Assembly (NCBI GenBank): GCA_938045315.1
Contig: CALINM010000207.1
Coordinates: 1-16,287 of the forward strand
Origin: an uncultured bacterium
GTDB lineage: Bacteria > CALINM01
Reading direction: 5' to 3'
DNA length: 16,287 bases
The notes under the pieces were generated by a model, which did not search any database, was not told the origin of the DNA, and worked only from the letters and a program-made list of their open reading frames with translations. A program made the position numbers and the translations under genes. Shown in pieces: positions 1 through 16,287 of the stretch (position 1 is its first letter; each line of letters begins with the position of its first letter).

Positions 1-1407
1 CTTTATATTATAGTCGCTTATAGATAAGGGGATTGATAAAGAGGGTGAAATTGTATTTAAAACAACATATTTGTCATTTATTATGTATCCTCTATCAAAA
101 ATCGTGGAGGGAGATAATGTTATATAACCTTTGTTTGCAAATTCCCCCCTATCCATGCTTCTTGAGTAAAGGTTATATCGAAGATTTGTATCTAAAGAAA
201 CATTGCCTTTAGAGTTATTGTAAACTAAAAAAGTAGTTCCCTCAATAGCTGCTCTGCCATGTTGCTCATTTTTTTCATCACTAAGTCCGGTAAGAGATAG
301 TTGATAAGTATAATAAAAGAAAGATGGTTTTTGCATAAGTTTTTCTTTGGTGATTTCTATTTTTTGTAATGATGCGGTGTTATTTTCAATAATTGCTTTT
401 TTTGTTAATAGTATGCTGGCTTCTACTAAATCTCGCTCTTCTTTTTTTTCAAAAAAAGCTGTACTTCTAACATAGGGGATATTCCTGTATTCTGAATCAT
501 CCTCGTATTCTTTAAAATAGTTTTTTGGATTAAAAAAACTCAAATTTGTATCGAAAATAAAGTCTTCTCTTGTTGTGTGAGACCAGTTAATTAGATAGAA
601 GAGTTTGTTATGGTCATAATTGTGAATAAGGTTAAAATTAAATGCACCTGAAGAGTTAAAAGAAAGCATGTATCTATAATCATTTTCTAATCCTATGGAA
701 TTTTTTGTTCTAAGTCTTAAAGTTGTGGTTATATCACTGCTATCATCAATAACGATATATAAAGGTTGTTTAAGAAGCAAACCATGTTTGCCAGACATGC
801 CAAAAGTAGGCATAAGCAGTCCCGTTTCTCTTTCGGTTTTGACAGGAGCAATAAAATAGGGGGAGTAAAACAAGGGTATTCCCAAAAAGTTCAGGGTAAC
901 ATGCTTACCAGTAAGATATTGTCCGGCCACAATGCGCAAATCTTTACCTTTAATAAACCAATCTTTATTTTCTCCCTCGCAGCTTGATACAAATCCTTCG
1001 CTAATAAAAGCACTTTCTCTATCAATGAGGGTAATATTTTTCCCTGAGAAAAATCTTCTTTTTGTAACATCTTGAGATAAAAAGAAAATATCACCCTCTT
1101 CAAGGTAACCTCTCTTTGATTCAATATTATATGTTAAGCCCTTTCCAGAGAATAGAAAATCTCTAAAAAATTTAAAATCTTCAGGAATAATTATTGTACC
1201 GTCCTTTTTGTTATACCTGATTAAGTTTGTCCAGAGCATCATATCATCTTTTCTTACTGTCACGTTTCCAATAGCTGTGATTATGCCAGTATTTTCATCC
1301 ACTTCAAAAGTATCAGCTTCAATATCAATGTCATGTGAACCGGCATAAGAATGTGTTACTGAAATTAGAAATAAAATGAGTGCAAAAATTTTAAAGAAAG
1401 ATTTCAT
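1..1407 (-). CDS. lptD: LPS-assembly protein LptD (OstA/Imp), C-terminus beyond window edge
   Basis: This gene encodes the outer-membrane beta-barrel that, with LptE, inserts lipopolysaccharide into the outer leaflet. I translated it directly: from the ATG at 1407 the frame stays open for 469 codons to base 1, so the 3' end lies outside the window. Residues 1-22 form a signal peptide (MKSFFK, a hydrophobic run, then cleavage after SYA). Residues about 27-125 are an LptA-like jellyroll (DIEADTFEVDENTG, then IGNVTV). The hallmark LptD core follows: SSC at 141-143 with W150, then FLGIPLFYSPYFIAPV at 174-189, TGLLMPTFG at 195-203 and a D-x-T strand near 225, after which barrel strands begin. C143 is the only cysteine seen. 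An AGAGGT Shine-Dalgarno lies 5 bases before the ATG, inside the end of folC, which it overlaps by 17 bases. E. coli LptD is 784 residues, so a third or more is probably missing. The family call is secure. Confidence 0.92.
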   Translation of the reverse strand, partial: MKSFFKIFALILFLISVTHSYAGSHDIDIEADTFEVDENTGIITAIGNVTVRKDDMMLWTNLIRYNKKDGTIIIPEDFKFFRDFLFSGKGLTYNIESKRGYLEEGDIFFLSQDVTKRRFFSGKNITLIDRESAFISEGFVSSCEGENKDWFIKGKDLRIVAGQYLTGKHVTLNFLGIPLFYSPYFIAPVKTERETGLLMPTFGMSGKHGLLLKQPLYIVIDDSSDITTTLRLRTKNSIGLENDYRYMLSFNSSGAFNFNLIHNYDHNKLFYLINWSHTTREDFIFDTNLSFFNPKNYFKEYEDDSEYRNIPYVRSTAFFEKKEERDLVEASILLTKKAIIENNTASLQKIEITKEKLMQKPSFFYYTYQLSLTGLSDEKNEQHGRAAIEGTTFLVYNNSKGNVSLDTNLRYNLYSRSMDRGEFANKGYITLSPSTIFDRGYIINDKYVVLNTISPSLSIPLSISDYNIK

Positions 1408-2686
1408 TTAGTACCTCTTTTGCTTCTCCAACTCCATAAAGGGAACCGGTAAATAAAATTGGTTTATCTTTTTTATAAAAACAATCTTTTATCACAGAAG
1501 GTATATCATCAGCAAAGATAAAATGATCATCATTTTTAAATTGTTTTTCGTAATCTTCTCTTTTATAACTTCTTTCATTTTTGTTTGGCACAAGAACAAT
1601 TTCCAGTGCGTAGGGTCTTAATTTATCTATCATTTCATTAATATCCTTATCCTTCAAAACCGTTAAAATTATCCTGAACTTTTGTCCTGGAAAGAAAGTA
1701 TCTAAATTTTTTACAAGTGAATCTACTCCCTGAGGATTATGGGCACCATCAATTATAAAAGGTGGTGTCTTTCGTATAATTTCAAATCTACCTGGCCACT
1801 TTGCTTTTTTAATGCCCCAATAAATATCTCTTTCATTAACCTTGAAGCCCCTTTTGGAAATTAGTTCTATTGCAGCAATGGCAAGAGATGCATTATCAAA
1901 CTGGTTAATACCTATTAGACTTTCTAAAACTATGTCATTGTAGTTTTTAAATATGCCCTTATAATTAAATTGAACATTATTTATTATTTCAGCAAAAAAC
2001 TCTTTATTTAATCTATAAAAGGGAGCATTTTTTGCTTTTGCTTCGCATTCTATAACATTTAATGCCTCTTTTTCCTTAGTACCAGTTATACAGGGGGTGT
2101 TGTTTTTAATTACCGATGCTTTTTCATAAGCAATTTTTTCTATTGTGTCCCCTAAAAATTCTCTATGATCCAATCCTATAGTTGTGATTATTGTTGTAAG
2201 TGGATTAAGAGTGTTTGTGGCATCGAGCCTGCCTCCAAGGCCTGCCTCTATTATAGCAATATCAACGTTTTCTTTTGCAAAATAATAAAAGGCCATAGCA
2301 GTGGTTACTTCGAAAAAGGTAAAGGGTTTTTTAGAATAGGGAGAATTTTCAATAGTTTCTTTTATCATAAAAGCAAGATTTTTAATATCTTCATGTGATA
2401 TGGGGTTTCCAGAAATTGTAATTCTCTCTGAAAAATCAATTAGGTGGGGGGAGGTGTAGGCACCGGTTTTATAACCAGCTTCTGTTAAAATAGAATTTAA
2501 AAAAGCTGCAGTTGAGCCTTTGCCATTAGTTCCTACAATATGTATGGACTTAAATTTTTTTTCTGGATTTCCAATAAGCCCAAGAAGAATATTTATATTT
2601 TCTAAACCTAAGAGAATTCCAAATTTTTCAAGACTGTATAAGTATTTATATGTATCTTCAATTGATCTCAATGACATCTCCGTCAT
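1391..2686 (-). CDS. folC: Bifunctional dihydrofolate synthase / folylpolyglutamate synthase
   Basis: A cytoplasmic Mur-ligase-family enzyme that uses ATP to add glutamate to dihydropteroate and then to tetrahydrofolates, which keeps folates in the cell. At 431 residues it has the usual length. Visible motifs are the P-loop GTNGKGS (52-58), YTSPHL (77-82) followed by SERI, the metal and substrate segment EAGLGGRLDATN near residue 145, then GLDH...LG, YEKA and the C-terminal-domain motif DGAHNPQG. The start is uncertain. The ATG at 2686 has no Shine-Dalgarno. An in-frame ATG at 2677 directly abuts GGAG, and a TTG at 2671 has GGAG 6 bases upstream; the TTG start would give 426 residues. The conserved fold starts after all three, so function is unaffected. 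The gene overlaps the end of the upstream phosphodiesterase-like gene by 14-29 bases depending on the start. Whether both activities are present cannot be settled by motif reading alone. Confidence 0.93.
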   Translation of the reverse strand: MTEMSLRSIEDTYKYLYSLEKFGILLGLENINILLGLIGNPEKKFKSIHIVGTNGKGSTAAFLNSILTEAGYKTGAYTSPHLIDFSERITISGNPISHEDIKNLAFMIKETIENSPYSKKPFTFFEVTTAMAFYYFAKENVDIAIIEAGLGGRLDATNTLNPLTTIITTIGLDHREFLGDTIEKIAYEKASVIKNNTPCITGTKEKEALNVIECEAKAKNAPFYRLNKEFFAEIINNVQFNYKGIFKNYNDIVLESLIGINQFDNASLAIAAIELISKRGFKVNERDIYWGIKKAKWPGRFEIIRKTPPFIIDGAHNPQGVDSLVKNLDTFFPGQKFRIILTVLKDKDINEMIDKLRPYALEIVLVPNKNERSYKREDYEKQFKNDDHFIFADDIPSVIKDCFYKKDKPILFTGSLYGVGEAKEVLNEIFL

Positions 2687-3440
2687 CCAGAATGTGTACG
2701 TTATCCATTTTAAGTGCTTTTATTTCTTTCTTAATGTCTTTTAAGAAATGAGGTTTTATGTGAAAAATATAGAAACTTATTTTTCCTTTGTTTTTTAGTT
2801 TTTTTATTTCTTCTAAAAAAAGTTCAGCAGTAAGATGCCCGGTTATTTTAGCTAATTCTTTCATGTGATTGGGAAAAGAAATTTCTATAAAAACTGCTCT
2901 TAAATTTTTTAATTTTGAAATTTTTTCCCATAAAGCATTGCATGGTCCTGTATCACCAGTATAAACAACACTTTTTACACCATCGTCAATTATGAATCCA
3001 GAAGAATCGCAAGAATGGCAAGTTTTAACTGCTTCTATATTTAATTCTTTACCGAATTGAGTTTTTTTACCCATATCAATAGGAACAAGTTTAAGGATAT
3101 TATCACCCTTTGTCCCCTTTATTTCAAAGAAATCTGGCCAGATTTTATTATTCATAATGAATTTTTTTAGCATGTTCAACACTGGTTCTATACCGTATAC
3201 TTTAATAGTCCCATTTGGATTTCCAGAGAGAATCAAGTTATCAGCTAAAAAGCAAAGGTCTTTAATATGATCAAGATGACAATGAGTAATACAAATGGAT
3301 TCTATATTTTTCTGCCTGTTAATATCCAGTTCTTTTACTATTGTTCCAGCATCAAGCAGATATCTCTCATTAATCAAAAACGTTACTGGATTGTGTTTTG
3401 GGTCAACACCACCATAACATCCAAGAACTTCAATTTTCAT
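2658..3440 (-). CDS. Metallo-beta-lactamase-fold hydrolase, class II cyclic-nucleotide phosphodiesterase-like
   Basis: A 260-residue, probably cytoplasmic metallohydrolase; no signal peptide or membrane segment is seen. The two-zinc site motif is THCHLDH (52-58), with further likely ligands H142 (CHS), D163 (YTGDTG, 160-165), H202 (GHLT) and H227/H231 (FHIKPH). HCHLDH, GDTG, E187-x-SFPN, GHLT followed by a helix, and the late HIKP match the class II cyclic-nucleotide phosphodiesterase family (CpdP and yeast PDE1 type) better than glyoxalase II, RNase Z or lactamases. From the family, hydrolysis of a cyclic nucleotide such as cAMP is plausible, but the substrate is not shown by the sequence. 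The gene overlaps the GAF/HD-GYP gene upstream by 11 bases and folC downstream. A modest AAGGGA Shine-Dalgarno precedes the ATG. Pairing with an HD-GYP protein suggests a second-messenger role, which is an inference. Confidence 0.8.
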   Translation of the reverse strand: MKIEVLGCYGGVDPKHNPVTFLINERYLLDAGTIVKELDINRQKNIESICITHCHLDHIKDLCFLADNLILSGNPNGTIKVYGIEPVLNMLKKFIMNNKIWPDFFEIKGTKGDNILKLVPIDMGKKTQFGKELNIEAVKTCHSCDSSGFIIDDGVKSVVYTGDTGPCNALWEKISKLKNLRAVFIEISFPNHMKELAKITGHLTAELFLEEIKKLKNKGKISFYIFHIKPHFLKDIKKEIKALKMDNVHILDDGDVIEIN

Positions 3441-4560
3441 AAATTTTTTCCCTTTTACTTTGTGATATTATTTTTCCCCTTTGAAAAGCTTTAATAAATG
3501 CATCAACAATAAGGGGATCAAACTGAATACCTGCATATTTTTTTAACTCTTCAATGGCAACATTATCATCAAGCCCCTTTCTATAAGGCCTATTTGATGT
3601 CATTGCGTCAAAGGTATCACATACGGCTATTATCCTTCCTATGATTGGTATTTCGTCTCCCTTTAAACCCAAAGGATAACCAGTTCCATCATATTTTTCA
3701 TGGTGACTGAATGTGCCTACTACAATTTCTGATAGGTGTTTTACTTTCTTTAGAATTTCAAGACCAATTTGGGGGTGTTTTTTCATTGTCTCAATTTCTT
3801 CCTCATTAAGGGGAGCAGGTTTTCTTAAAATCGCATCGTCAATTCCTATTTTGCCTATATCATGGAGTATAGCAGATAGTTCTAAGTTTTCTTTCTCTTC
3901 TTTATTTAAACCCAGTTCTTCAGCTATTGCAAGGCAGTATTCCGTTACCCTTCTTACGTGTCCACCTGTATAAGGGTCTCTTTTTTCCACCGCTTCAGCA
4001 AGAGCAAAAGAGGTCTGGAAAAATGTTTCCTTCAATTTATTGTATAGCTTTGCATTTTCTAAAGCTATGGAAACTATGTTGGCAAAGGATTCAAACAAGT
4101 TTAAATCTTCATTTGAAAAGTTCTCATCATCCTTCTTATTTATAGCTTGAATAACTCCAAGGAGTTTATCCCTGTAAATAAGGGGTGAACATAAAATGGA
4201 TTTTGTAACAAAGCCAGATTGCTCATCTGCTTTACTGAAAAATCTTGGATCTTTTTTAACATCGTTTACTATAAGACTTTTTCGAGTTTTAGCAACACTA
4301 CCAGCGATACCTTCTCCTATTTTTAACCTAATTTTTTTTATTATTTCTCCTTTTTCTCCCAGAGCCACATGGAAGTATAACTCATCTTTCTCTTCATCGT
4401 ATAGAAGAAGGGATCCCACTTCAGCATTAACAATTTCAGTGATTGCTTCAATAGTTTTCTTATATATATAAGAAGGCTCTAAAGAAGAATTAAGTAAAAG
4501 TGTTACTGAAAGCAGTTTTTTGTGTTTTTCTAATTCTTTAAGTAAAAAATTATTTTCCAT
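3430..4560 (-). CDS. GAF-domain HD-GYP protein, probable cyclic-di-GMP phosphodiesterase
   Basis: A 376-residue soluble signalling protein. A short N-terminal helix is followed by a GAF sensor domain (about residues 25-172: EVGSLLLYDEE, GEGIAGSVA, DPRF, CSPL, LGVIQAINK) and a complete HD-GYP domain (about 180-360). The HD-GYP signatures look intact: DPYTGGH (195-201), HDIGKIGI (233-240), KHPQIG (261-266), HHEKYDGTGYP (286-296), GDEIPIIGRI and the long DAMTSNRPYR segment. All expected metal ligands therefore seem to be present, and hydrolysis of c-di-GMP (or a related cyclic dinucleotide) is the likely activity. No receiver, GGDEF or membrane segment is present, so input should come from a small ligand or redox signal at the GAF domain; that ligand is unknown. 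The gene overlaps the end of trpA by 11 bases and the next gene by 11 bases, so it appears to be co-expressed with tryptophan synthesis. The Shine-Dalgarno is weak (GAGAAG). Confidence 0.9.
   Translation of the reverse strand: MENNFLLKELEKHKKLLSVTLLLNSSLEPSYIYKKTIEAITEIVNAEVGSLLLYDEEKDELYFHVALGEKGEIIKKIRLKIGEGIAGSVAKTRKSLIVNDVKKDPRFFSKADEQSGFVTKSILCSPLIYRDKLLGVIQAINKKDDENFSNEDLNLFESFANIVSIALENAKLYNKLKETFFQTSFALAEAVEKRDPYTGGHVRRVTEYCLAIAEELGLNKEEKENLELSAILHDIGKIGIDDAILRKPAPLNEEEIETMKKHPQIGLEILKKVKHLSEIVVGTFSHHEKYDGTGYPLGLKGDEIPIIGRIIAVCDTFDAMTSNRPYRKGLDDNVAIEELKKYAGIQFDPLIVDAFIKAFQRGKIISQSKREKIYEN
4457..4474. repeat. 18-bp perfect palindrome inside the HD-GYP gene
   Basis: The sequence TTCTTATATATATAAGAA equals its own reverse complement. 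It lies in codons about 29-35 of the GAF/HD-GYP gene (encoding part of SYIYKK), just before the GAF core. It is entirely A/T apart from one C and one G. It could be a protein-binding site or chance in AT-rich DNA; the perfect symmetry is the only evidence. Confidence 0.4.
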
Positions 4561-5350
4561 GGCAGCTTCTCGATAATAGTTTTATAAAATCAATAAAATT
4601 TTGTTTTTCTTCATAATTTTTTGATGCTAATTCCCATTTTTTAACAATAGCACTTCCTATTACAAATCCATCTGCATGGTTATGAAACTGTTCAATCGTT
4701 TCTGGTCCAGAAATGCCAAAACCAAGAACGACGGGAATTTTAAAATTAGTTCTCAAAATCCTTAGTTTCGCTGATGTTTCAGGAGGAAGAGCATTTCTAA
4801 CACCTGTAACACCTGTAACCGAAACAAAATATATAAAACCTGATGCAAATTTATTTATAATTTCAATTCTTTTTAAATCTGTTGTAGGTGTGGCCAGAAA
4901 AATTTGGGTAAGTTTATTTTTTTTAAGTATTTCAGAATACTCCTCGGTTTCTTCTGGTGGCAAATCTACAATTAATACTCCATCCACACCTTTTTTTCTT
5001 GCCTCTTCAGAAAATTTTTCAAACCCGTAAGCAAAGAAAGGATTTAGATAACCCATTAAGATTAATGGTGTAGTATATTTTTTTCTGAATTTTTCTACAA
5101 TTTCTAATGTTTTTTTAACTGTTGTGCCTGATTTGATAGCTCTCTCCATAGCAGCCTGGATTACAGAGCCATCTGCCATTGGATCAGAGAATGGGACACC
5201 TAATTCTATAATATCAGCACCATTTTCAGCAAATATTTCAAGTGCTTCAAGGGTTTTTTCACAATCTGGGTCGCCAGAGGTTATATAGGGGATAAAAGCT
5301 TTTCCTTTAGTTTTTTTTAATTTTTTAAAAACATCTTTTATTTTACTCAT
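4550..5350 (-). CDS. trpA: Tryptophan synthase alpha subunit
   Basis: This gene encodes the alpha subunit, a TIM barrel that splits indole-3-glycerol phosphate into indole and glyceraldehyde 3-phosphate and passes indole through a tunnel to TrpB. At 266 residues it has standard length. The catalytic pair falls at its classical positions: E49 in [12 protein letters not shown] and D60 in [10 protein letters not shown]. Also visible are YITSGDPD (22-29), LILMGYLNP, the loop-6 region FVSVTGVTG, and the phosphate-binding GFGIS and GFVIGSAIV near the C-terminus. It follows trpB with an 8-base overlap and runs 11 bases into the HD-GYP gene. No close Shine-Dalgarno precedes its ATG; a GGGAG lies about 14 bases upstream, so coupling to trpB translation is likely. 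Confidence 0.97.
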
Positions 5351-6539
5351 TTTTATTCATTAACTCCCTTACTTGCATAACATCTTTATCGCCTCTACCC
5401 GAAAGATTAATCAAAACTATTTTATTTTTTAGTTTATCAGCATTTTTAACTACGTAAGCAATTGCATGACTACTTTCTAAAGCTGGAATTATCCCCTCTT
5501 CTTTTGATAGTAGGTAAAAGGCAGAAAGAGCTTCATCATCATGAGCATAAGTATATTTAACCCTTCCGGTCTCGAATAGATAACTATGTTCAGGCCCTAC
5601 ACTAGCATAATCAAGTCCGGCTGAGATGGAATGGGTCGTAAGAATTTGACCATCTTCATCCTGGAGTACATAACTTTTTGTTCCCTGAAATATACCAACC
5701 TTTCCCCCTGCAAATCTCGCTGCGTGCTTGCCAGGTTCAATGCCCACTCCACCTGCTTCTACACCAACGAGCTCCACATTCTTATCATCCAGAAAGGGAT
5801 AAAATATACCCATTGCATTGCTACCACCACCTACACAAGCTACAACTACATCAGGTAGTCTTCCTGATACCTTTTTAATTTGTCTTATTGCTTCTTTACC
5901 AATAACAGATACAAAGTGTTTAACCATGGTGGGATAAGGATGGGGACCAAAAACAGTTCCTAAAACATAATGGGTATCATAAACATTTGTTACCCAGTCC
6001 CTCAACGCCTCATTAATGGCATCTTTCAAAGTCTTACTTCCACCATCAACGCCTATAACTTCTGCACCTAAAAGCTCCATTCTAAAAACATTCAGAGACT
6101 GCCTTTTCATGTCTTCCTTACCCATGTAAATTCTACATTTAAGCCCCATCAAAGCTGATGCTGTTGCTGTAGCAACGCCATGTTGCCCTGCACCGGTTTC
6201 TGCGATTATGCGTGTTTTTCCCATTTTTTTTGCGAGTAAAACCTGACCAATGGCATTGTTAATCTTATGAGCACCTGTATGGCATAAATCCTCCCTTTTT
6301 AAATAAAGTTTTAACCCTAATTTTTTAGAAAGATTTTCCGCAAAATAGAGTGGAGTAGGTCTTCCTACAAATTTAGTTAAATAATATTGAAAATTTTTTT
6401 GAAATTTTTTATCCCTGGACAATTTGAAAAAAGCTTTTTCAAGCTCTCTTAATGCAGGTATTAGTGTCTCCGGTACGAATATCCCGCCAAATCTTCCAAA
6501 ATAGCCTTTTTCGATAAAAAAACTATCATTCTTTTTCAT
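5343..6539 (-). CDS. trpB: Tryptophan synthase beta subunit
   Basis: A PLP enzyme that condenses indole with L-serine to form L-tryptophan in the alpha2beta2 complex with TrpA. At 398 residues it has the length of the standard TrpB1 class. Visible features are [13 protein letters not shown] near the N-terminus, [12 protein letters not shown] (59-70), the PLP lysine K92 in HTGAHKINN, catalytic E114 in AETGAGQHG, the phosphate-binding loop [33 protein letters not shown], the [12 protein letters not shown] helix and the C-terminal NLSGRGDKD. No catalytic residue is missing. The start overlaps trpF by 4 bases (ATGA). The co-substrate serine links this enzyme to serA at the head of the cluster. 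Confidence 0.98.
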
Positions 6540-7147
6540 AAATATTCTTGATTTTCTCTTATTTTTTTGAAAAATTCAAACATCTTTTTAGAATCTTTAA
6601 TTCCATATGAAGATTCTAAACCAGAAGCCACATCTATAGCAAAGGGTTTGTATTTTAATGCTACTAAAACATTATCATTATTTATACCGCCTGCTAATAT
6701 GTATGGTTTTGTAACACCTTTAAGAAAATTCCAATCAAATACCTGCCCCGTACCACCGTGAAAACTTTGATGGTAGGTATCAAAGAGAATAAGGTGATTT
6801 AATTTTAGAGCTTCGTAAACATCTGATTGGGTTTTTATTTTAAAAACGGGTATATATATTGATGGATCAAGAAGGTCATATCTATTTTTATCATCGTAGA
6901 AAATCTGAATTCTATCAAGACCACAAAAATTTTTTATTGACTCCATTACGTTTAAATCTTCGTTAACAAATACGCCAACCTTTATTATAAGGGGTGTCAA
7001 GTTTTTTATTATTTTTTTTGCATTCTCTGGTGATATAAATCTTTTGCTCTCTTTGTAAAAGATAAATCCTAATGCATGGGCACCCAGGGTTTCTGCTAAT
7101 TTAGCGTCTTCTGAACGAGTGATTCCACATACCTTAATCCGTATCAC
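6536..7147 (-). CDS. trpF: Phosphoribosylanthranilate isomerase
   Basis: A TIM-barrel enzyme that isomerises N-(5'-phosphoribosyl)anthranilate to the deoxyribulose phosphate substrate of TrpC. At 203 residues it is a normal monofunctional form. The general base C7 lies in KVCGITR and the general acid D123 in LFDTYHQS. The phosphate loops GGTGQVFDW (131-139), [10 protein letters not shown] (151-160) and [14 protein letters not shown] are intact. One segment is unusual: after LDRIQ the usual QLHG is replaced by QIFY (81-84). Translation starts at a GTG at 7147, chosen because GTG gives the canonical N-terminus and a GAGGGG Shine-Dalgarno lies about 8 bases before it. The gene overlaps trpC by 14 bases and trpB by 4. 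Confidence 0.96.
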
Positions 7148-7934
7148 TTACTAAACCCCTCAGATTGTTAAGTTTTTTTACTGGATCATCGGAACTCATT
7201 AGTGTTGAGCCTATAAGGAATCCTGAAACACCAATTTTAAGAAAGCTTTCAATATCACTTCTCGTTTCAATTCCACTTTCAATAATTACAGGAATAGTTT
7301 CAGGAATGCTCTCTAAAATTTTCAAGCCCCAATTCAAATCTATTTCAAGTGTTTCAAGATTTCTATTATTTATACCCAGTGTATATAATTCATTCAAATC
7401 ATAAAATTCTTCAAATTTTTTAAGACTGTGAATTTCAAAACAAACATCAATATTAAGTTCCTTTGCACAATATAATAGTTCTTTCAAATGTGATTTTTCC
7501 AATGCTTCTGCTATGAGAAGTATCGCATCTGCACCAAGCACTTTACTTTCATAAATTTCATATTCATCAACTATAAAATCTTTGCGTAAAATAGGTAAGG
7601 GAGAAGCTTTTTTTACAACAGGGAGGTCTTCAGGATTCCCGAAAAAAAATTTAGGTTCTGTTATTAAAGATATAGCTTTAGCTCCACCCATATGATATTT
7701 TTTAGCAATTTCAGATACATCTATTTGCAAATTAAAAATTTTTCTGGCAGGCGATGCTTTTTTTATTTCTGCAATTATACGGGTTTCAGTATTTGTGCGA
7801 TTTTGAAATAATTCTCTAAAGGGCCTTTTTTGAAAAGGGACATCTCTACCTTTTAATTCTCTTAGAGGGATCTTTGATTTTTTTTGCTTCACATATATTT
7901 TTTTTTCTTCAATTACTTTTTTTAAAAACATCAT
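7134..7934 (-). CDS. trpC: Indole-3-glycerol phosphate synthase
   Basis: This enzyme closes the indole ring, making indole-3-glycerol phosphate with loss of CO2 and water. At 266 residues it is a separate enzyme, not fused to TrpF as in E. coli. Key residues are visible in order: E56 and K58 in [13 protein letters not shown]118 in ILRKDF, E167 in FEIHS, N189 in [12 protein letters not shown], and E219 in IIESGI, followed by the phosphate-binding [10 protein letters not shown]. The N-terminal helix (residues 1-45) that binds substrate is present. There are two tandem ATG codons (MM), so the start may be either. It overlaps trpD by 4 bases and trpF by 14. Confidence 0.97.
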
Positions 7935-8986
7935 TCATTACTCATCTTAATAAGTTTTTCTAATTTTGCTATAGCTTTACCTGAATCTATAACAGATTGG
8001 GCATATTCGATGCCTTCTTTTATTGTGGTGGCCTTTCCAGCTACGTAAAAAGCTGCTCCTGCATTTAAAACAACTATAGCGCGTTTAGCCCCTCTTTCTT
8101 TACCTGTTAGAATATCTTTTATTATATTGGCATTATCAGTTGCATTACCACCTCTTAGTTCTGAAAAACTATAAATCGGCATGTTAAAATGAGTGGGGTT
8201 TATATAATAAGTTTTTACCTGATTGTTCTTTAATTCTGCTACGTAGGTATCTTTTGTAACTGTTATCTCATCCATACCATCCATACCATGAACAACCATT
8301 GCTCTTTTTGTTCCCAATCTTTGTAAAACGTAAGCAAGAGTCTCACAGAGTTCTTCTTTATATACCCCCAATACCTGGTATTTTGCATTAGCTGGATTAG
8401 TAAGAGGTCCTAAAATATTAAATATGGTTCTTATACCAATTTCTCTTCTTGGACCTATTGCATGTTTCATTGCTCCATGAAAGGTTGGTGCAAATAAAAA
8501 ACCTATACCTATTTTTCTAATGCACTTTGCTACCGTTTCAGGTGTAGCTTCGATATTTACACCTAATTCTTTTAATACATCGGCACTACCACATACACTG
8601 GATACAGAACGATTCCCATGCTTTGCAACTGTTATACCTCCTCCTGCTACTACAAAAGCAGTAGCAGTTGAAATATTAAATGTTAGTGTGCCATCTCCCC
8701 CAGTTCCACAGGTGTCAATAATTGTTTCTCTATCAATGTTTATATCATCCCTGTCTAAATCAAGTGCAACTCCTTCTATTGGTATTTTTGTTGCCCTTTG
8801 TCTCATGACTTTTGCAGCACCTACTATTTCATCAATTGTTTCCCCTTTCATCCTGAGGGCAGTAATGAAAGAACCAATTTGAGCTTGTGTAGCTTCTCCA
8901 GACATAATTTCTTCCATAACCTGCATCATTTCTTCTTCTTCCAAGTCTATTTTATCTACAACTTTGTGGATAGCTTCTCGTATCAT
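7931..8986 (-). CDS. trpD: Anthranilate phosphoribosyltransferase
   Basis: This enzyme joins anthranilate to PRPP to give phosphoribosylanthranilate, the second dedicated step. At 351 residues it is the free-standing form, not fused to TrpG. Visible are the PRPP and metal loop DTCGTGGDG (91-99), FNISTA (103-108), KHGNRSVSS (122-130), [10 protein letters not shown] (133-142), the FLFAP segment, [15 protein letters not shown] and the [12 protein letters not shown] loop. An acidic run near residue 80 ([10 protein letters not shown]) makes the segment before the glycine loop slightly longer than usual. A GGAGG Shine-Dalgarno lies 8 bases before the ATG, which overlaps the trpG stop as ATGA. PRPP use here parallels that of HisG, the partner of the upstream hisZ. 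Confidence 0.97.
8644..8667 (-). other. Potential RNA hairpin inside trpD
   Basis: On the transcribed strand the arms CTGCTACT and AGTAGCAG enclose GCTTTTGT. A further G-U and C-G pair would extend the stem to 10 pairs with a UUUU loop. It falls in the codons for ATAFVVAG after the PRPP loop. Alternating Ala/Val codons could create this by chance, so function is doubtful. Confidence 0.25.
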
Positions 8987-9573
8987 ATTTTTTTCCTCCA
9001 GAAAATTTTTGAAATATTAATAAAGTTTTTAAGAATCTTTTTGCCTTCCCTTGTAAGTATTGATTCGGGATGAAACTGAATGCCCTCTATGACAAAATTT
9101 TTATGCCTTATTCCCATAATTTCACCATCTACAGTCCAGGCAGAAATAATAAATTCCTTTGTTAAACTCTCTCGCTTAATTGCCAGTGAGTGGTATCTTG
9201 TTGCCTCAAAGGGGTTTTCTATATGGTGAAAAATGGTTCTACCATCATGGAAAATTAATGATGTTTTTCCGTGCATGAGGCATTTTGCTTTAACTATTTC
9301 GCCACCAAAAGCATAACCAATGGATTGATGTCCAAGACAAACTCCTAAAATTGGAATTTTTCCAGCAAAATATCTTATAACTTCTACAGATATACCTGCT
9401 TCTTTTGGAGAACAGGGACCTGGCGAGATGACAATCATTTCTGGTGCTAATTGTTCTATTTCCTTTAATGTAATTTCATCATTTCTGAATACTATTACTT
9501 CTTCTCCTAACTCTCCAAAATACTGAACAAGATTATAAGTGAAAGAGTCATAATTATCTATCATTAGGAGCAT
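8983..9573 (-). CDS. trpG: Anthranilate synthase glutamine amidotransferase component
   Basis: A class I glutamine amidotransferase that supplies ammonia from glutamine to TrpE. At 196 residues it is a stand-alone subunit. The catalytic triad is complete: C79 in GVCLGHQ, and H168 and E170 in QFHPES. The oxyanion segment ISPGPCSP (49-56) and the N-terminal [15 protein letters not shown] are typical of TrpG/PabA. An ideal AGGAGG lies 6 bases before the ATG. It follows trpE by 15 bases and overlaps trpD by 4. TrpG proteins can also serve 4-aminobenzoate synthase; with folC further down the same unit a dual TrpG/PabA role is possible, but nothing in the sequence proves it. Confidence 0.97.
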
Positions 9574-9588
9574 TATATTCCTCCTGTA

Positions 9589-11025
9589 CTATCCAAGAAT
9601 ATCCTGTAAATCAGTAATAGATTTCATTAATGCCATTGCTTTATTTAGAGTTTCATTGTATTCATTTTCAGGAATGGAATCTGCCACTATTCCTGCTCCA
9701 GATTGTATATACACTGCCTTACCCTTTTTTAACATTGTTCTTATAGTTATACAAAAATCCATGTTCCCATTAAAACCAAAATAACCAACTCCACCGGCGT
9801 AAAACTCCCTTTTTAAAGATTCTAATTCTTCTATTATTTCCATAGCTCTAATTTTTGGTGCACCTGTTACTGTACCAGCTGGAAAAGTAGCTTTAAAAAC
9901 ATCAAAAGCATCCATTCCTTCTTTAAGCAGTCCTTTTACAGAAGATACTATATGCATAACATGAGAGTATTTTTCTATAATCATAAAATCTGGAACAGTA
10001 ACTGAACCAGTTTTAGCAATCCTACCAATATCATTTCTACCAAGATCAACAAGCATAACATGTTCAGCACATTCTTTTTTATCGTTAAGTAGTTCTTCTT
10101 CTAAAAATTTATCTTCTTCTAATGTTTTACCTCTTTTTCTTGTACCTGCGATAGGTCTTACTTCTACCTCATTATTTTCGAGCCTAACTAATATTTCAGG
10201 TGATGAACCAATTAGATTATAATCACCAAAATCGAGGAAGAACATATATGGTGAAGGATTAATGACTCTTAGGGCACGATATAAATCTAGGCCATCTGCT
10301 GTTACATCTGCTTTAAATCTCTGAGATAAAACAACCTGTATTATATCTCCATTACAAATATATTCTTTCGCTTTTACGATCATACTTTCAAAATCTTTCT
10401 TTTCCGTAAGGTTTTTAATATTTCCTATGGAGAATTTAACTTTTTTAAGTTTTATTATAGGACTTTTCAAAATATCGTAAATTTTACTTAGTTCTGAGAT
10501 ATCCCTTCTATGAGGAGCATAGGAAGGTTTGTTTGAGTAATTTAAACTTACAAGTGTCATTTTATGAGTGAAATTGTCAAATATAACAAGCTTTTTAGGG
10601 ATTATGAAAAACATATCAAAGATGCCTAATTTGTAGGGAGATATATTGGGAAGCTTTTCAAAAAATCTTATCATATCATATCCAACATAACCAACAGCAC
10701 CACCAGAAAATCTAAGTTCTTCCATTGCTTTATGGGGCATAAAATTTTTCATAAAATCTCGTAATACTTCAAAGGGATTTTCAGTAAAAAATTGTTCATT
10801 AATATCACCTTCTATAATGACTTTTTTGCCCTTTGATTTAAAGGTACAAAGAGGATCAAATCCTATGAAAGAGTATCTACCAAGCCTACCAGCAGATTCC
10901 ACGCTTTCTAATAGGAAAGAGGGTTTGTCTGGATACGCAGTTTTCAATTTATAATAACAAGATAAGGGAGTATCAAGATCTGCAAGGTGAGTTTTGAAAA
11001 AGGGATAGACATACATTTTTTTCAT
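9589..11025 (-). CDS. trpE: Anthranilate synthase component I
   Basis: The chorismate-binding subunit that, with ammonia from TrpG, makes anthranilate and pyruvate, the entry step to tryptophan. At 478 residues it has normal length. The N-terminal regulatory motif LLESVE (38-43) is present, with S41 at the position of the tryptophan-contacting serine of enterobacterial TrpE, and NPSPYM occurs in the middle of the protein. Feedback inhibition by tryptophan is therefore likely. The catalytic half shows GSSPEILVR, RPIAGTRKRG, DLGRNDIGR, FPAGTVTGAPKIRAMEII, GGVGYFGFNG and SGAGIVADS. The regulatory motifs and trp context favour TrpE over PabB. It begins 15 bases after purA. Unlike trpG it has no recognisable Shine-Dalgarno, and a second in-frame ATG is present at codon 4. 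Confidence 0.97.
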   Translation of the reverse strand: MKKMYVYPFFKTHLADLDTPLSCYYKLKTAYPDKPSFLLESVESAGRLGRYSFIGFDPLCTFKSKGKKVIIEGDINEQFFTENPFEVLRDFMKNFMPHKAMEELRFSGGAVGYVGYDMIRFFEKLPNISPYKLGIFDMFFIIPKKLVIFDNFTHKMTLVSLNYSNKPSYAPHRRDISELSKIYDILKSPIIKLKKVKFSIGNIKNLTEKKDFESMIVKAKEYICNGDIIQVVLSQRFKADVTADGLDLYRALRVINPSPYMFFLDFGDYNLIGSSPEILVRLENNEVEVRPIAGTRKRGKTLEEDKFLEEELLNDKKECAEHVMLVDLGRNDIGRIAKTGSVTVPDFMIIEKYSHVMHIVSSVKGLLKEGMDAFDVFKATFPAGTVTGAPKIRAMEIIEELESLKREFYAGGVGYFGFNGNMDFCITIRTMLKKGKAVYIQSGAGIVADSIPENEYNETLNKAMALMKSITDLQDILG

Positions 11026-11040: not shown

Positions 11041-12330
<1,290 letters not shown>

Positions 12331-13584
12331 TTACTCCTTCCCCTGATTATGGAAAAACTCTTGTGTAAATTTTTTAAAAAAGTTATCTAAGGACATTTTT
12401 TTTGTCTCGTTATTCTTACAATTTGTTACAGTCAAACTTATATTATCCTCTAAAATTAGAATATAATCAAACCTGTTTTTTTGGAGCCCTTTTTTTCTTA
12501 CCTTTGTCAAAAGAGTAACTCGGATTTCATTATTTTGTAAATACTGTGCAATACTTAAAAGGGTCTTCATATTATCATTTTTCGTAACTAATGCAACCTC
12601 AATGTTTTTAGGCCGAAGAATACAGTTTGAAAGAGCAATAATGTCTATTGCAAACCCTGTAGCTGAAGTGTTATTTATTCCAAACTGTTTTAGCAATTTA
12701 TTATATCTTCCACCAGTTATTATTTCTTTCATCTTTCCAGAATTATCTTTTAAATATCCATCAAATACAATCCCACTGTGGTATTCAAGCCCCCTTACTT
12801 CACCTAAATCAAAATAAATTTTATTGCCTAATGTGATATTTATAAATTCGCTTAGTTGTATTAGTTCGTTAAGATTTGGTGTTATGAAAGGAATGGGAAA
12901 TTTTTTTTGAATATCCTTAAGAAGTTTTTCATCACCACAAAGAAGTGGCAATTCGATAATAAAACTTTTTATAGCTTTATCAACATTTAATGGGGACACT
13001 ATTTTTTCAATTTTACTTATATCACGATTAATAAATGCCTGTTTTAATTCTAAATTTTTATATAAACCAGATTTATTAAGGAGCTTTCTTAAAATTTGAT
13101 TGTCATTAAAATACATTTTAATCTTTTCTTTTAAATTAAGGTTTTTAGTTATTTCGTTAATTATTAATAGTATTTCTTGTTCAGCTTTTATATCTTCAAT
13201 ACCAATTATTTCAACTCCAGCATGATGTATTTCCCTTGGATTAGCAAAAAAGCTAGCTGGATTTCTCAAAACTGAACCAAAATAACATAACTTTATTGGT
13301 AAATTTCGGCAAAAATCTTTGTAAGATGCTATTATTCTTACGATCTGAGGGGTAAAATCAAATCTAAAACAAGCGGTCCTGTTCTCATAGGGGTCAATAA
13401 AATTAAAAACGTGACTTTCTTCTTCCCCACTAAATGTGTAAGTTTTTAAAAACTCTACTGAGGATGTTATAATAGGTCTATATCCATAAGCTAAAAAAGA
13501 TTCATAAAGTTTGTGTTGTACAAAATAAAAGACCTCCGCCTCATCAGGCAGGAGGTCTTTGAACCCCTTGGGTAGTTTAAACAT
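12331..13584 (-). CDS. hisZ: ATP phosphoribosyltransferase regulatory subunit HisZ
   Basis: A catalytically inactive histidyl-tRNA-synthetase paralogue that binds short-form HisG, activates the first histidine step and mediates histidine feedback. At 417 residues it has a class II synthetase-like core. Visible are GFKDLLPDEAE (7-17), the motif-2 region FRFDFTPQIVRI (73-84) in place of the synthetase LRPEGT, YFGSVLRN (101-108) and REIHHAGVEIIG (117-128), and the histidine-pocket-like RGLEYHSGIVFDGY. The motif-3 arginine typical of true HisRS is not seen (GFAIDIIALS). The last 80 or so residues (from VALVTKN) resemble a reduced anticodon-binding domain. It starts 1 base after the serA stop, with only a weak AGAGA upstream. 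A strong hairpin lies in codons 9-19. HisG is not in this window and should exist elsewhere in the short form. Confidence 0.9.
   Translation of the reverse strand: MFKLPKGFKDLLPDEAEVFYFVQHKLYESFLAYGYRPIITSSVEFLKTYTFSGEEESHVFNFIDPYENRTACFRFDFTPQIVRIIASYKDFCRNLPIKLCYFGSVLRNPASFFANPREIHHAGVEIIGIEDIKAEQEILLIINEITKNLNLKEKIKMYFNDNQILRKLLNKSGLYKNLELKQAFINRDISKIEKIVSPLNVDKAIKSFIIELPLLCGDEKLLKDIQKKFPIPFITPNLNELIQLSEFINITLGNKIYFDLGEVRGLEYHSGIVFDGYLKDNSGKMKEIITGGRYNKLLKQFGINNTSATGFAIDIIALSNCILRPKNIEVALVTKNDNMKTLLSIAQYLQNNEIRVTLLTKVRKKGLQKNRFDYILILEDNISLTVTNCKNNETKKMSLDNFFKKFTQEFFHNQGKE
13521..13560 (-). promoter_or_regulatory. Terminator-like stem-loop with U-tract inside hisZ codons 9-21
   Basis: On the transcribed strand, AAAGACCTCC then (after one bulged T) GCCT pairs with AGGC then GGAGGTCTTT, around a GATG loop. 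This gives 14 pairs with one bulge. The 3' arm runs directly into TTTATTTTG, so the whole has the shape of an intrinsic terminator. It begins 24 bases after the hisZ start codon, in frame. The codons used here (CTC, CTG, GCG, GTC) are G/C-ending in an AT-rich gene. The structure is seen directly; a role in attenuation or in hisZ translation is inferred. Confidence 0.5.
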
Positions 13585-13585
13585 T

Positions 13586-15178
13586 CTAAATCTCTATATA
13601 ATTTACTGATATTATATTTGGTAATTTTGACATCTCTTCAAGAACCGTTTTATCAACGGGCTGATCCACATGTAGAATTGAAATTGCTGTTCCACCAGCT
13701 TTATCTCTACCCCAGCTCATGCTACCAATATTAATATTTAATCTACCAAGTGTTGTACCTATATTGCCAATTACACCGGGTTTATCGTAGTTATAAAGCA
13801 TTAAAATATGCCCCTCAGGCACAGATTCGACATAAAAATTATTTATTCTCACAATTCTTGGTTCTCTTCCAAAAATTGTACCCATCATAGTCAGGGTGTC
13901 TTTATCTGTCTTAACAGATACTGTGATTAGGTTGTTAAAATCTTTTATGGATGTCGATTTTGATTCAGCGATATTCATACCCCTCTCTTTAGCAATCAGT
14001 GGAGCATTAACATAATTTACTTCTCCCGATTCCATTACTTTTGAAAAGAATCCCTTTAAAAAGGCGATAGTAAGAACACTGGTGTTCTTTTCAGCAATAT
14101 CACCACTGTATTCGATCTGTACATTTTTGATTGCCCCCTTCAATATTTGTGGAACAAAAGCACCAATACCTTCGTTAAGCTTGAGAAAAGGTTCAAAAAA
14201 GCTTAGCTCTTCACTTGTGAGAGAAGGAACATTTACAGCATTTACAATAACACCTCTTTCTAAGTAATCTACAATCTGTTCAGCAATAGCAATTGAAACA
14301 TTTACCTGTGCTTCCTCTGTAGAAGCTCCTAAATGGGGTGTACATATAAAATTATCTAAGGTAAGTAATGGGTTAGAGGGATCTACTGGCTCTTTCTCAA
14401 ATACATCAAAAGCAGCTCCAGCAACCTTCTTTGAAAGTAGTGCTTCATAAAGATCCTTTTCATTTACAAGACCCCCACGGGCACAGTTAATTATATAAAC
14501 ACCATTTTTCATCTTTGCAATACTTTCTTTGTTTATCATATTTTTGGTCTCTTCGAGCAAAGGTACATGTATTGTAATATAATGAGAGCGCTCATATAAT
14601 TCATCTAATGATACCAGTTCAACACCCTTTTTAGCTGCTAATTCTTCTGTAAGATAGGGGTCATAGGCAATAACATTCATTTTTAGACCCCTGGCTCTAT
14701 CGGCCACTATGGAACCAATATTACCAAGCCCAATTATACCAAGGGTTTTATTATAAAGCTCCCTTCCCATAAATTTACTTTTCTCCCATTTCCCGGACTT
14801 TACAGATTGAGTTGCTTGTGGAATATGTCTTGTTAATGCCATCATTAATGCTATGGTATGTTCAGCAGTAGTTATAGTGTTTCCACCGGGTGTATTCATT
14901 ACAACTATACCACGTTTTGTTGCAGAAGGGACATCTATGTTATCAACACCAATACCAGCTCTACCAATTACTTTTAAATTAACCCCTTTTTCAATAACTT
15001 CTTTGTCCACTTTGGTTGCACTTCTTACAGCGAGGGCATGAAAATCTCCAATAATAGAGAGCAATTCTTCCCTTGTTATTTTATTTTTAATAACAGCTTC
15101 TATTTTTTTTGAACTTTTAAGTATTTTTGCACCTTCCTCGGATATTCCATCACAAACAAGTACTTTATAAGTAGTCAT
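13586..15178 (-). CDS. serA: D-3-phosphoglycerate dehydrogenase
   Basis: An NAD-dependent enzyme that oxidises 3-phosphoglycerate to 3-phosphohydroxypyruvate, the first step of the phosphorylated serine pathway. At 530 residues it is the long form with three parts. The first is a catalytic substrate/NAD core (about 1-315), with GRAGIGVDNID, the Rossmann motif GLGNIGSIVADRARG, NCARGGLVNE carrying the catalytic arginine, and PHLGASTEEAQ with the catalytic histidine. An intervening ASB domain (about 320-450) follows, and then a C-terminal ACT domain (about 456-530: MLYNYDKPGVIGNIG, then NINIGSMSWGR). The ACT domain is the usual serine-feedback site. A perfect AGGAGG lies 6 bases before the ATG, overlapping the stop region of the aminotransferase gene 10 bases upstream, which supports the start. 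Confidence 0.97.
   Translation of the reverse strand: MTTYKVLVCDGISEEGAKILKSSKKIEAVIKNKITREELLSIIGDFHALAVRSATKVDKEVIEKGVNLKVIGRAGIGVDNIDVPSATKRGIVVMNTPGGNTITTAEHTIALMMALTRHIPQATQSVKSGKWEKSKFMGRELYNKTLGIIGLGNIGSIVADRARGLKMNVIAYDPYLTEELAAKKGVELVSLDELYERSHYITIHVPLLEETKNMINKESIAKMKNGVYIINCARGGLVNEKDLYEALLSKKVAGAAFDVFEKEPVDPSNPLLTLDNFICTPHLGASTEEAQVNVSIAIAEQIVDYLERGVIVNAVNVPSLTSEELSFFEPFLKLNEGIGAFVPQILKGAIKNVQIEYSGDIAEKNTSVLTIAFLKGFFSKVMESGEVNYVNAPLIAKERGMNIAESKSTSIKDFNNLITVSVKTDKDTLTMMGTIFGREPRIVRINNFYVESVPEGHILMLYNYDKPGVIGNIGTTLGRLNINIGSMSWGRDKAGGTAISILHVDQPVDKTVLEEMSKLPNIISVNYIEI
14072..14089. repeat. Near-palindromic dyad inside serA
   Basis: AAGAACAC and GTGTTCTT are perfect 8-bp inverted arms separated by TG. 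The site lies in the ASB-domain coding region of serA. It has operator-like symmetry but no other supporting evidence, so it may be chance. Confidence 0.25.
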
Positions 15179-15188
15179 TGCTAACCTC

Positions 15189-16287
15189 CTACTCAGCTAA
15201 TATTTCCATTGCTTTTTTAACACCTGAACCAAAGTCAAAAGTATGTCCAAGAGTTTTCAAAGCAAATTCGATGGCAGATACAGCAATTATTATGTCAAAT
15301 CTATCGTAATAACCTAAATGAGCAATTCTAAAAATTTTACCCTTTGCCTGATCCTGACCACCTGTTATTGTAACATTGAGTTTATCTCTACAATATTTTA
15401 CAATTTTTCCTGCATCCATACCTTCTGGCGCATAAACAGCTGTTACTGCGTTACTTGGTGAATCTGGAGCAAAAAGCTTTAATCCTATTGCTTTCATTGC
15501 TTCTCTTGTTGCTTTTGCTAAGGTCTCATGCCTTTTATAAATATTTTCTAAACCTTCTTCTTTCATGCTTTTTAGAACTTCTTTTAAGCCAATAATTAAA
15601 GATACTGCTGGAGTATAAGCAGTTTGATTTTCTTTTATATTTTTTAGTTCCTTTTTAAAGTCAAAATAAAATTTAGGTAATTTAGAATTTTCAACAAATT
15701 TCCATGCCTTATCTGAAAGACCTGCAAAGGCAAGCCCGGGTGGAAGCATAAGCGCTTTTTGAGAACCCGTTATCAAAATATCTATACCCCACTCATCCAT
15801 GGGTAAAGGAAAAACACCCACCCCAGTTATACCATCTACCACTAATATTGTATTTTCATAATTTCTAACAATATCAGCAATTTCCTTTGTAGGATGCATA
15901 ACACCCGTTGAAGTCTCACTTGCTTGAATAAAAACTGCTTTAATATCTGGTTCAGCATCTAAAGCCTTTTTAATGTCAGAAGGATTAACTGCTTTACCCC
16001 ATTCAACTTTAATAACGCGAGCATCTATGCCATAGGCTTTACATATATTATTCCACCTTTCGCCAAATTTACCGCCATCTACTACAAGTGCTTTATCACC
16101 AGGTGAGAGGGTATTAGTAACGGCACCTTCCATTGCCCCTGTGCCTGAGGCTGCAAAAATAAGCACTTCATTTTTTGTGCCAAATAAGTATTTTAATCCT
16201 TCTCTTACTTCTTCCATCACAGGTATAAACTCTGGCGCTCTGTGGTGGATAATAGGTTTTGCCATTTCTAATAAAGTGTCTGGGGAA
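15189..16287 (-). CDS. Class V aminotransferase (serine-pyruvate/alanine-glyoxylate type), N-terminus beyond window edge
   Basis: A PLP-dependent fold-type I aminotransferase. The frame stays open to the window edge, and the codons before the apparent ATG at 16265 read SPDTLLE, which joins MAKPIIHHR exactly as in the family's conserved N-terminus. The real start is therefore upstream, probably only a few residues outside the window. Numbering from that internal Met, visible motifs are AASGTGAMEGA (38-48) for PLP phosphate binding, QASETSTGV (114-122), the PLP-pyridine aspartate D144 in VVDGITGVG, the Schiff-base lysine K170 in TGSQKALMLPPG, and a C-terminal RIAHLGYYDRFD. Position 10 bases upstream of serA suggests it provides the phosphohydroxypyruvate-to-phosphoserine transamination, or a serine/glyoxylate reaction. 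It is of the serine-pyruvate subfamily, not classic SerC. Substrate choice cannot be read from the sequence. Confidence 0.88.
   Translation of the reverse strand, partial: SPDTLLEMAKPIIHHRAPEFIPVMEEVREGLKYLFGTKNEVLIFAASGTGAMEGAVTNTLSPGDKALVVDGGKFGERWNNICKAYGIDARVIKVEWGKAVNPSDIKKALDAEPDIKAVFIQASETSTGVMHPTKEIADIVRNYENTILVVDGITGVGVFPLPMDEWGIDILITGSQKALMLPPGLAFAGLSDKAWKFVENSKLPKFYFDFKKELKNIKENQTAYTPAVSLIIGLKEVLKSMKEEGLENIYKRHETLAKATREAMKAIGLKLFAPDSPSNAVTAVYAPEGMDAGKIVKYCRDKLNVTITGGQDQAKGKIFRIAHLGYYDRFDIIIAVSAIEFALKTLGHTFDFGSGVKKAMEILAE

Follow-up and report, generated by a model that had tools for sequence, protein, structure and literature searches.

Why a hairpin with the form of an intrinsic terminator should lie within the first codons of a full-length gene is the question raised by hisZ in the window, the whole stretch of 16,287 nucleotides analyzed here. 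Hairpins that lie inside genes tend to be discounted by terminator predictors and annotation pipelines, and an operon without an intergenic gap is usually assumed to be evenly expressed. A first-pass annotation had noticed this hairpin and proposed that it makes transcription of the purine and tryptophan genes dependent on translation of hisZ.

The serA-hisZ junction and its gene neighborhood

The host reading frame of the hairpin, hisZ, comprises 417 codons and opens with MFKLPKGF. The genes around it and the junction itself are located as follows.

15189-16265, minus strand: class-V aminotransferase, first gene of the cluster, with its 5' end reaching the contig edge
13586-15178, minus strand: serA, phosphoglycerate dehydrogenase (TIGR01327 above cut-off), the gene upstream of hisZ
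13585-13588, minus strand: serA stop codon TAG (13588-13586), plus the one base that separates it from the hisZ ATG
12331-13584, minus strand: hisZ, ATP phosphoribosyltransferase regulatory subunit-like (its best model, TIGR00443, scores below the curated cut-off)
11041-12327, minus strand: purA, adenylosuccinate synthase

The phylum comparison consists of three genomes: that of the window (G000) and two others, G001 and G002, which are public MAGs titled 'Proteobacteria bacterium' SKW176 and SKW305. A contig search for more relatives returned the same two genomes and one distant match. In all three genomes, serA, hisZ, and purA are co-oriented in the same order, and the 1-nt junction between the serA stop and the hisZ start is kept. 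Positions 1-11025 of the window hold trpE-G-D-C-F-B-A, followed by HD-domain, RNase Z-like, folC, and lptD-like genes. The trp genes and this following set lie 3' of purA in G000 and G001. In G002, a convergent EamA-type transporter gene follows purA (L036 8513-9367), and the trp genes are not there. In G001 and G002, a good promoter-like site, TTGACT/TTGACA-17-TATAGT, occurs just 5' of the aminotransferase gene, at the point where the window is cut off by the contig edge.

L058 18383-18355, minus strand: promoter-like site before the aminotransferase gene
L036 3208-3236, plus strand: promoter-like site before the aminotransferase gene

Structure and codon usage of the hairpin

The hairpin is composed of the following elements.

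13560-13528, minus strand: terminator-like hairpin, identified by folding and present in G000 (the window), G001, and G002
13551-13560 / 13528-13537, minus strand: outer arms, 10 pairs
13550, minus strand: bulged T
13546-13549 / 13538-13541, minus strand: inner arms, 4 pairs
13542-13545, minus strand: hairpin loop GATG, 4 bases
13521-13527, minus strand: U-rich tail TATTTTG (RNA: UAUUUUG), encoding F-Y-F of HisZ codons 19-21

Read 5' to 3' on the minus strand, the hairpin is AAAGACCTCC-T-GCCT-GATG-AGGC-GGAGGTCTTT, followed by TATTTTG. The tail together with the last paired U residues reads UUUUAUUUUG, with U at seven of the eight positions 3' of the GC core in all three genomes, and the TTTTATTTTGT of the tail does not differ among them. 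The hairpin is in frame with hisZ (ATG at 13584) and begins 24 nt past the A of this ATG; the stem covers codons 9-19, and the tail extends to codon 22. Refolding reproduced the geometry given in the first-pass annotation, namely 10 and 4 pairs, one bulge, a 4-base loop, and a U-rich tail, all in frame.

The minimum free energy of the region 13515-13570 is -22.1 kcal/mol when the plus strand is folded (z -5.0 relative to dinucleotide shuffles, none of which was as good), while folding of the minus strand across the hairpin region yields -23.0 kcal/mol. The comparison with codon-shuffled controls, suggested in that annotation, came out in favor of the fold. Synonymous recodings, in which the peptide was kept and the codons were drawn by the gene's own usage, averaged -7.3 against the observed -23.0 in G000 (z -7.2), and none of 5000 was as good. 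The unusual codon choice claimed for the arms is likewise borne out by the codon counts of the gene: the hairpin codons are rare in hisZ (GAC 4/19, CTC 3/47, CTG 1/47, GCG 1/15, and GTC 1/16). The core energies of -19.0, -17.0, and -16.4 kcal/mol in the three genomes reflect a stable, G+C-rich stem. The sequence therefore has the form of an intrinsic terminator, in which a stable G+C-rich hairpin is followed directly 3' of the stem by a U-rich tract. A repeat or mobile palindromic element is ruled out by the single genomic copy at up to three mismatches, a bidirectional terminator by the mere UUUG beyond the stem on the plus strand, and a misplaced hisZ start by the HisZ motif, which begins 5' of the hairpin in all three genomes.

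Position of the hairpin relative to serA

The genome of the window was scanned for G-C-closed hairpins with a U-rich stretch, in a stricter scan over 0.90 Mb and then over 1.03 Mb of the 1.86-Mb genome (~55%). By the d'Aubenton Carafa score, in our own implementation, the hisZ hairpin ranks 7th of 1,147 hairpin and U-tail candidates in the 1.03 Mb, with d values of 32.0, 24.8, and 22.7 in the three genomes. By core energy, it ranks 4th in the stricter 0.90-Mb scan. Most of the other top candidates are intergenic and, where an upstream stop was assigned, mostly lie 8-35 nt past it; the gene calls were simple longest-ORF calls, by which some 'in gene' labels may be wrong. Most of the other strong post-stop hairpins of G000 resemble ordinary intergenic terminators. 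The GC core of the hisZ hairpin starts 28 nt 3' of the serA stop codon in all three genomes, and thus occupies the position of an ordinary serA terminator. The oddity is not the place of the hairpin relative to serA but the start of hisZ, which comes 1 nt after serA, ahead of the hairpin. The strongest U-tailed hairpin of the first survey (-21.2 kcal/mol) is found at L046:720-750 on the minus strand, 213 nt into an ORF whose N terminus looks DNA-binding-like.

Conservation in the phylum and comparison with outgroups

G001 and G002 carry the hairpin at the same hisZ codons and with the same tail. Their HisZ proteins are 65% and 42% identical to that of the window, and HisZ diverges faster than the products of both serA (93% and 79%) and purA (85% and 68%). 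Synonymous shuffling gave z -5.7 in G001 (0 of 5000 as good) and z -4.2 in G002 (2 of 5000). The arms are identical in G000 and G001, between which the synonymous codons of the cluster agree at about 48-60%. Codons GAC10, CTC11, GAG17, GTC18, TTT19, TAT20, and TTT21 are unchanged across all three genomes, and codons 9-21 rank 4th among 4,365 codon segments in synonymous identity. The hisS paralogues of G001 and G002, which served as negative controls, contain no such hairpin.

The first-pass annotation had looked to compensatory synonymous changes in the arms as a further indication. One C-G pair is replaced by U-A in G002, and just one side of this exchange is synonymous, the other being a leucine-to-serine substitution. 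The single covariation is weak alone, since 144 of 500 shuffles reach it with three sequences. The encoded peptide had also been regarded as a conserved HisZ motif. This view holds for PDEA, which is HisZ-like, but not for EVFYF, which at this place is specific to the phylum among the sequences compared and absent from the HisZ and HisS of other groups. The RNA signal may have imposed or shaped the EVFYF of HisZ.

The same serA-hisZ-purA order is found in five more distant genomes (L004, L005, L007, L008, and L009). A comparable terminator-like hairpin is absent within 160 nt of the serA stop in all five; the best outgroup hairpin, that of L007, reaches -9.9 kcal/mol and has a poor tail. The absence of the hairpin from these outgroups despite the same gene order makes it look like a clade-specific gain. 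In the simplest history, the gene order would be old and the terminator would have been gained in this phylum.

A second hairpin at the ctpA-deacetylase junction

A second terminator-like hairpin came out of the same scan of the genome of the window.

L089:14130-14155 (G000:C17), minus strand: second terminator-like hairpin, with counterparts in L159 and L160

It lies 33 nt into a gene for a divergent polysaccharide deacetylase (PF04748) and 29 nt past the stop of the overlapping C-terminal processing peptidase gene (ctpA). The hairpin is also present in G001 and G002, and in G002 the stem bases are largely different with the pairing kept. Five of its nine pairs are changed on both sides, a level reached by just 5 of 500 shuffles. 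Its synonymous-shuffle z values of -3.5, -4.0, and -2.4 are weaker than those of hisZ. Both the hisZ and the deacetylase hairpins are situated 28-30 nt past the upstream stop, and the conservation of the deacetylase hairpin with the same layout indicates that the hisZ hairpin is no isolated case. A third candidate, in an EamA-like gene (L125) with the hairpin 72 nt into the ORF, was rejected, as it shows no conservation in G001 or G002.

A generalization that we advance only tentatively is that, in this phylum, intrinsic terminators at tight operon junctions may be accommodated in the opening codons of the gene that follows, 28-30 nt past the upstream stop. The N-terminal sequence, such as EVFYF of HisZ, would thereby be shaped, and a dual-coding operon step-down would be achieved without intergenic DNA.

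A probable leaky terminator behind serA

The hairpin is probably an intrinsic (Rho-independent) terminator of the aminotransferase-serA transcript, contained in hisZ codons 9-22 and leaky into hisZ and purA. It would lie inside hisZ codons because hisZ starts 1 nt after serA. An intrinsic terminator placed at numerous positions in E. coli is repressed by ribosomes only near the upstream stop, and its activity is maximal beyond ~27 nt (Li et al., PMC4824070). A terminator 30 bp inside the second ORF remains near-maximal despite translation (PMC4824070), because at that point the ribosomes still lag behind the polymerase (PMC4824070; also PMC7858274). The spacing of 28-30 nt, read together with this behavior, suggests a leaky terminator whose action does not depend on hisZ translation, although the behavior seen in E. 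coli may not hold in this lineage.

In the proposed mechanism, RNA polymerase leaving serA would make the hairpin, the ribosome ending serA would be too far behind to block it, and the ribosome starting hisZ would not have caught up with the polymerase. Some polymerases would halt at the U tract, and the remaining ones would read on into hisZ and purA, and into trp in two genomes. The products of hisZ and purA would be set lower than that of serA. From the sequence, we infer termination in vivo, its strength, which is predicted from the energies, and the step-down as the selected effect. The same DNA appears to code for protein and to turn down the genes behind it.

A predicted terminator between serA and the downstream genes, already part of the first-pass annotation, is well supported by its conservation in three genomes, a fold that surpasses synonymous shuffles, a normal distance to the stop, and the second example. 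That annotation had placed the stop before purA and trp. The claim stands for purA, which follows the hairpin in each of the three genomes; for trp, it applies to just G000 and G001. Since trp does not come after purA in G002, control of trp cannot explain why the hairpin is conserved in all of them. The three genomes have in common a putative step that separates aminotransferase-serA from hisZ-purA.

If termination were very efficient, purA would be starved; hence, either the predicted terminator would have to leak or there would have to be an internal promoter. A promoter-like sequence, TTGATT-17-GATAAT (AATAAT in G002), lies inside the end of hisZ, ~100-117 nt before purA, in all three genomes.

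Window 12470-12442, minus strand: promoter-like site before purA
L058 14469-14441, minus strand: promoter-like site before purA
L036 7100-7128, plus strand: promoter-like site before purA

This site could supply purA with transcripts that bypass the terminator, or it may simply mirror the shared peptide. Terminated RNAs carrying the hisZ start would trap ribosomes, which counts against the terminator reading. A tmRNA is clear in G001 and G002, and there is no match above the cut-off in the incomplete G000. Rho is encoded in all three genomes, so that other termination is available too.

Alternative readings

The translation-coupled attenuator of the first-pass annotation, in which prompt reinitiation at hisZ would keep the hairpin open and poor initiation would stop transcription, is unlikely. 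It accords with the conserved 1-nt stop-start junction, the weak hisZ Shine-Dalgarno sequence (AGAG), and the location of the hairpin within a translated region, and a terminator farther into a gene can be held in check by coupled ribosomes (PMC4824070, PMC7858274). However, terminators in E. coli escape repression when they lie within the first 100 bp of an ORF or more than 27 nt past a stop (PMC4824070), and the layout recurs at ctpA, which belongs to an unrelated pathway. In a search for an antiterminator, the best upstream match to an arm comprised 8 G-U-rich pairs (6 in G002) and was much weaker than the terminator. The first hisZ codons include no run of His, Trp, or Ser codons, and there is no leader peptide. 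The E. coli spacing data, together with the lack of a strong antiterminator and of regulatory codons, argue against this part of the annotation.

It is improbable that the hairpin is an RNA processing or stability element that protects a processed serA mRNA against exonucleases at its 3' end, with no termination. Such a role would suit a strong stem just 3' of serA, and differential decay of operon mRNA is known (PMC5927463). The U tract would be needless for this purpose, yet it is identical in three genomes; this point is indecisive, as the genome is AT-rich and FYF is encoded by the same tract.

A hairpin that only slows the early elongation or initiation of hisZ translation is highly improbable. 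The U tail and the constant distance to the serA stop would be left unexplained, as would the resemblance of most strong post-stop hairpins here to intergenic terminators, even though the onset of the hairpin lies near the leading edge of an initiating ribosome. Chance or peptide constraint, with a HisZ motif encoded by palindromic codon choice, scarcely deserves credence: part of the peptide is a family motif and the genomes number three, but the synonymous shuffles, the rare codons kept in all three, and the absence of the hairpin from the hisS paralogues (G001 and G002) and the outgroups oppose it.

Relation to known terminators

Internal operon terminators set gene stoichiometry in the ABC importer operons of cellulolytic Clostridia (PMC9045158). 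The predicted serA terminator would resemble these as a putatively leaky intrinsic hairpin between operon genes, from which more upstream product is expected. The clostridial terminators are intergenic (>50 bp in that survey), whereas the hisZ one is contained entirely within the next gene's coding sequence. The E. coli reporter W48 (Li et al. 2015, PMC4824070) similarly carries a terminator 30 bp into the downstream ORF, soon after the stop; it is efficient despite translation and engineered, while the hisZ element is natural and conserved. Premature termination inside coding sequence is also shared with the ORF-internal 3' ends and intrinsic terminators of E. coli (PMC7815308). Those ends were mapped experimentally, whereas the hisZ terminator is predicted, tied to an operon junction, and backed by genome comparison. 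Ribosome-mediated attenuators (trp, his, and pyrBI) likewise place a terminator in a translated region before biosynthetic genes. In contrast to them, the hisZ case is without a leader peptide, regulatory codons, or an antiterminator, and its host frame is a full-length gene.

Implications

The serA-hisZ junction offers a clean natural test of the ribosome-to-RNA polymerase lag needed for terminator action. If the proposed reading is true, steps in expression can be concealed within the coding sequence of compact genomes, and some N-terminal 'conserved protein motifs' would partly be RNA signals.
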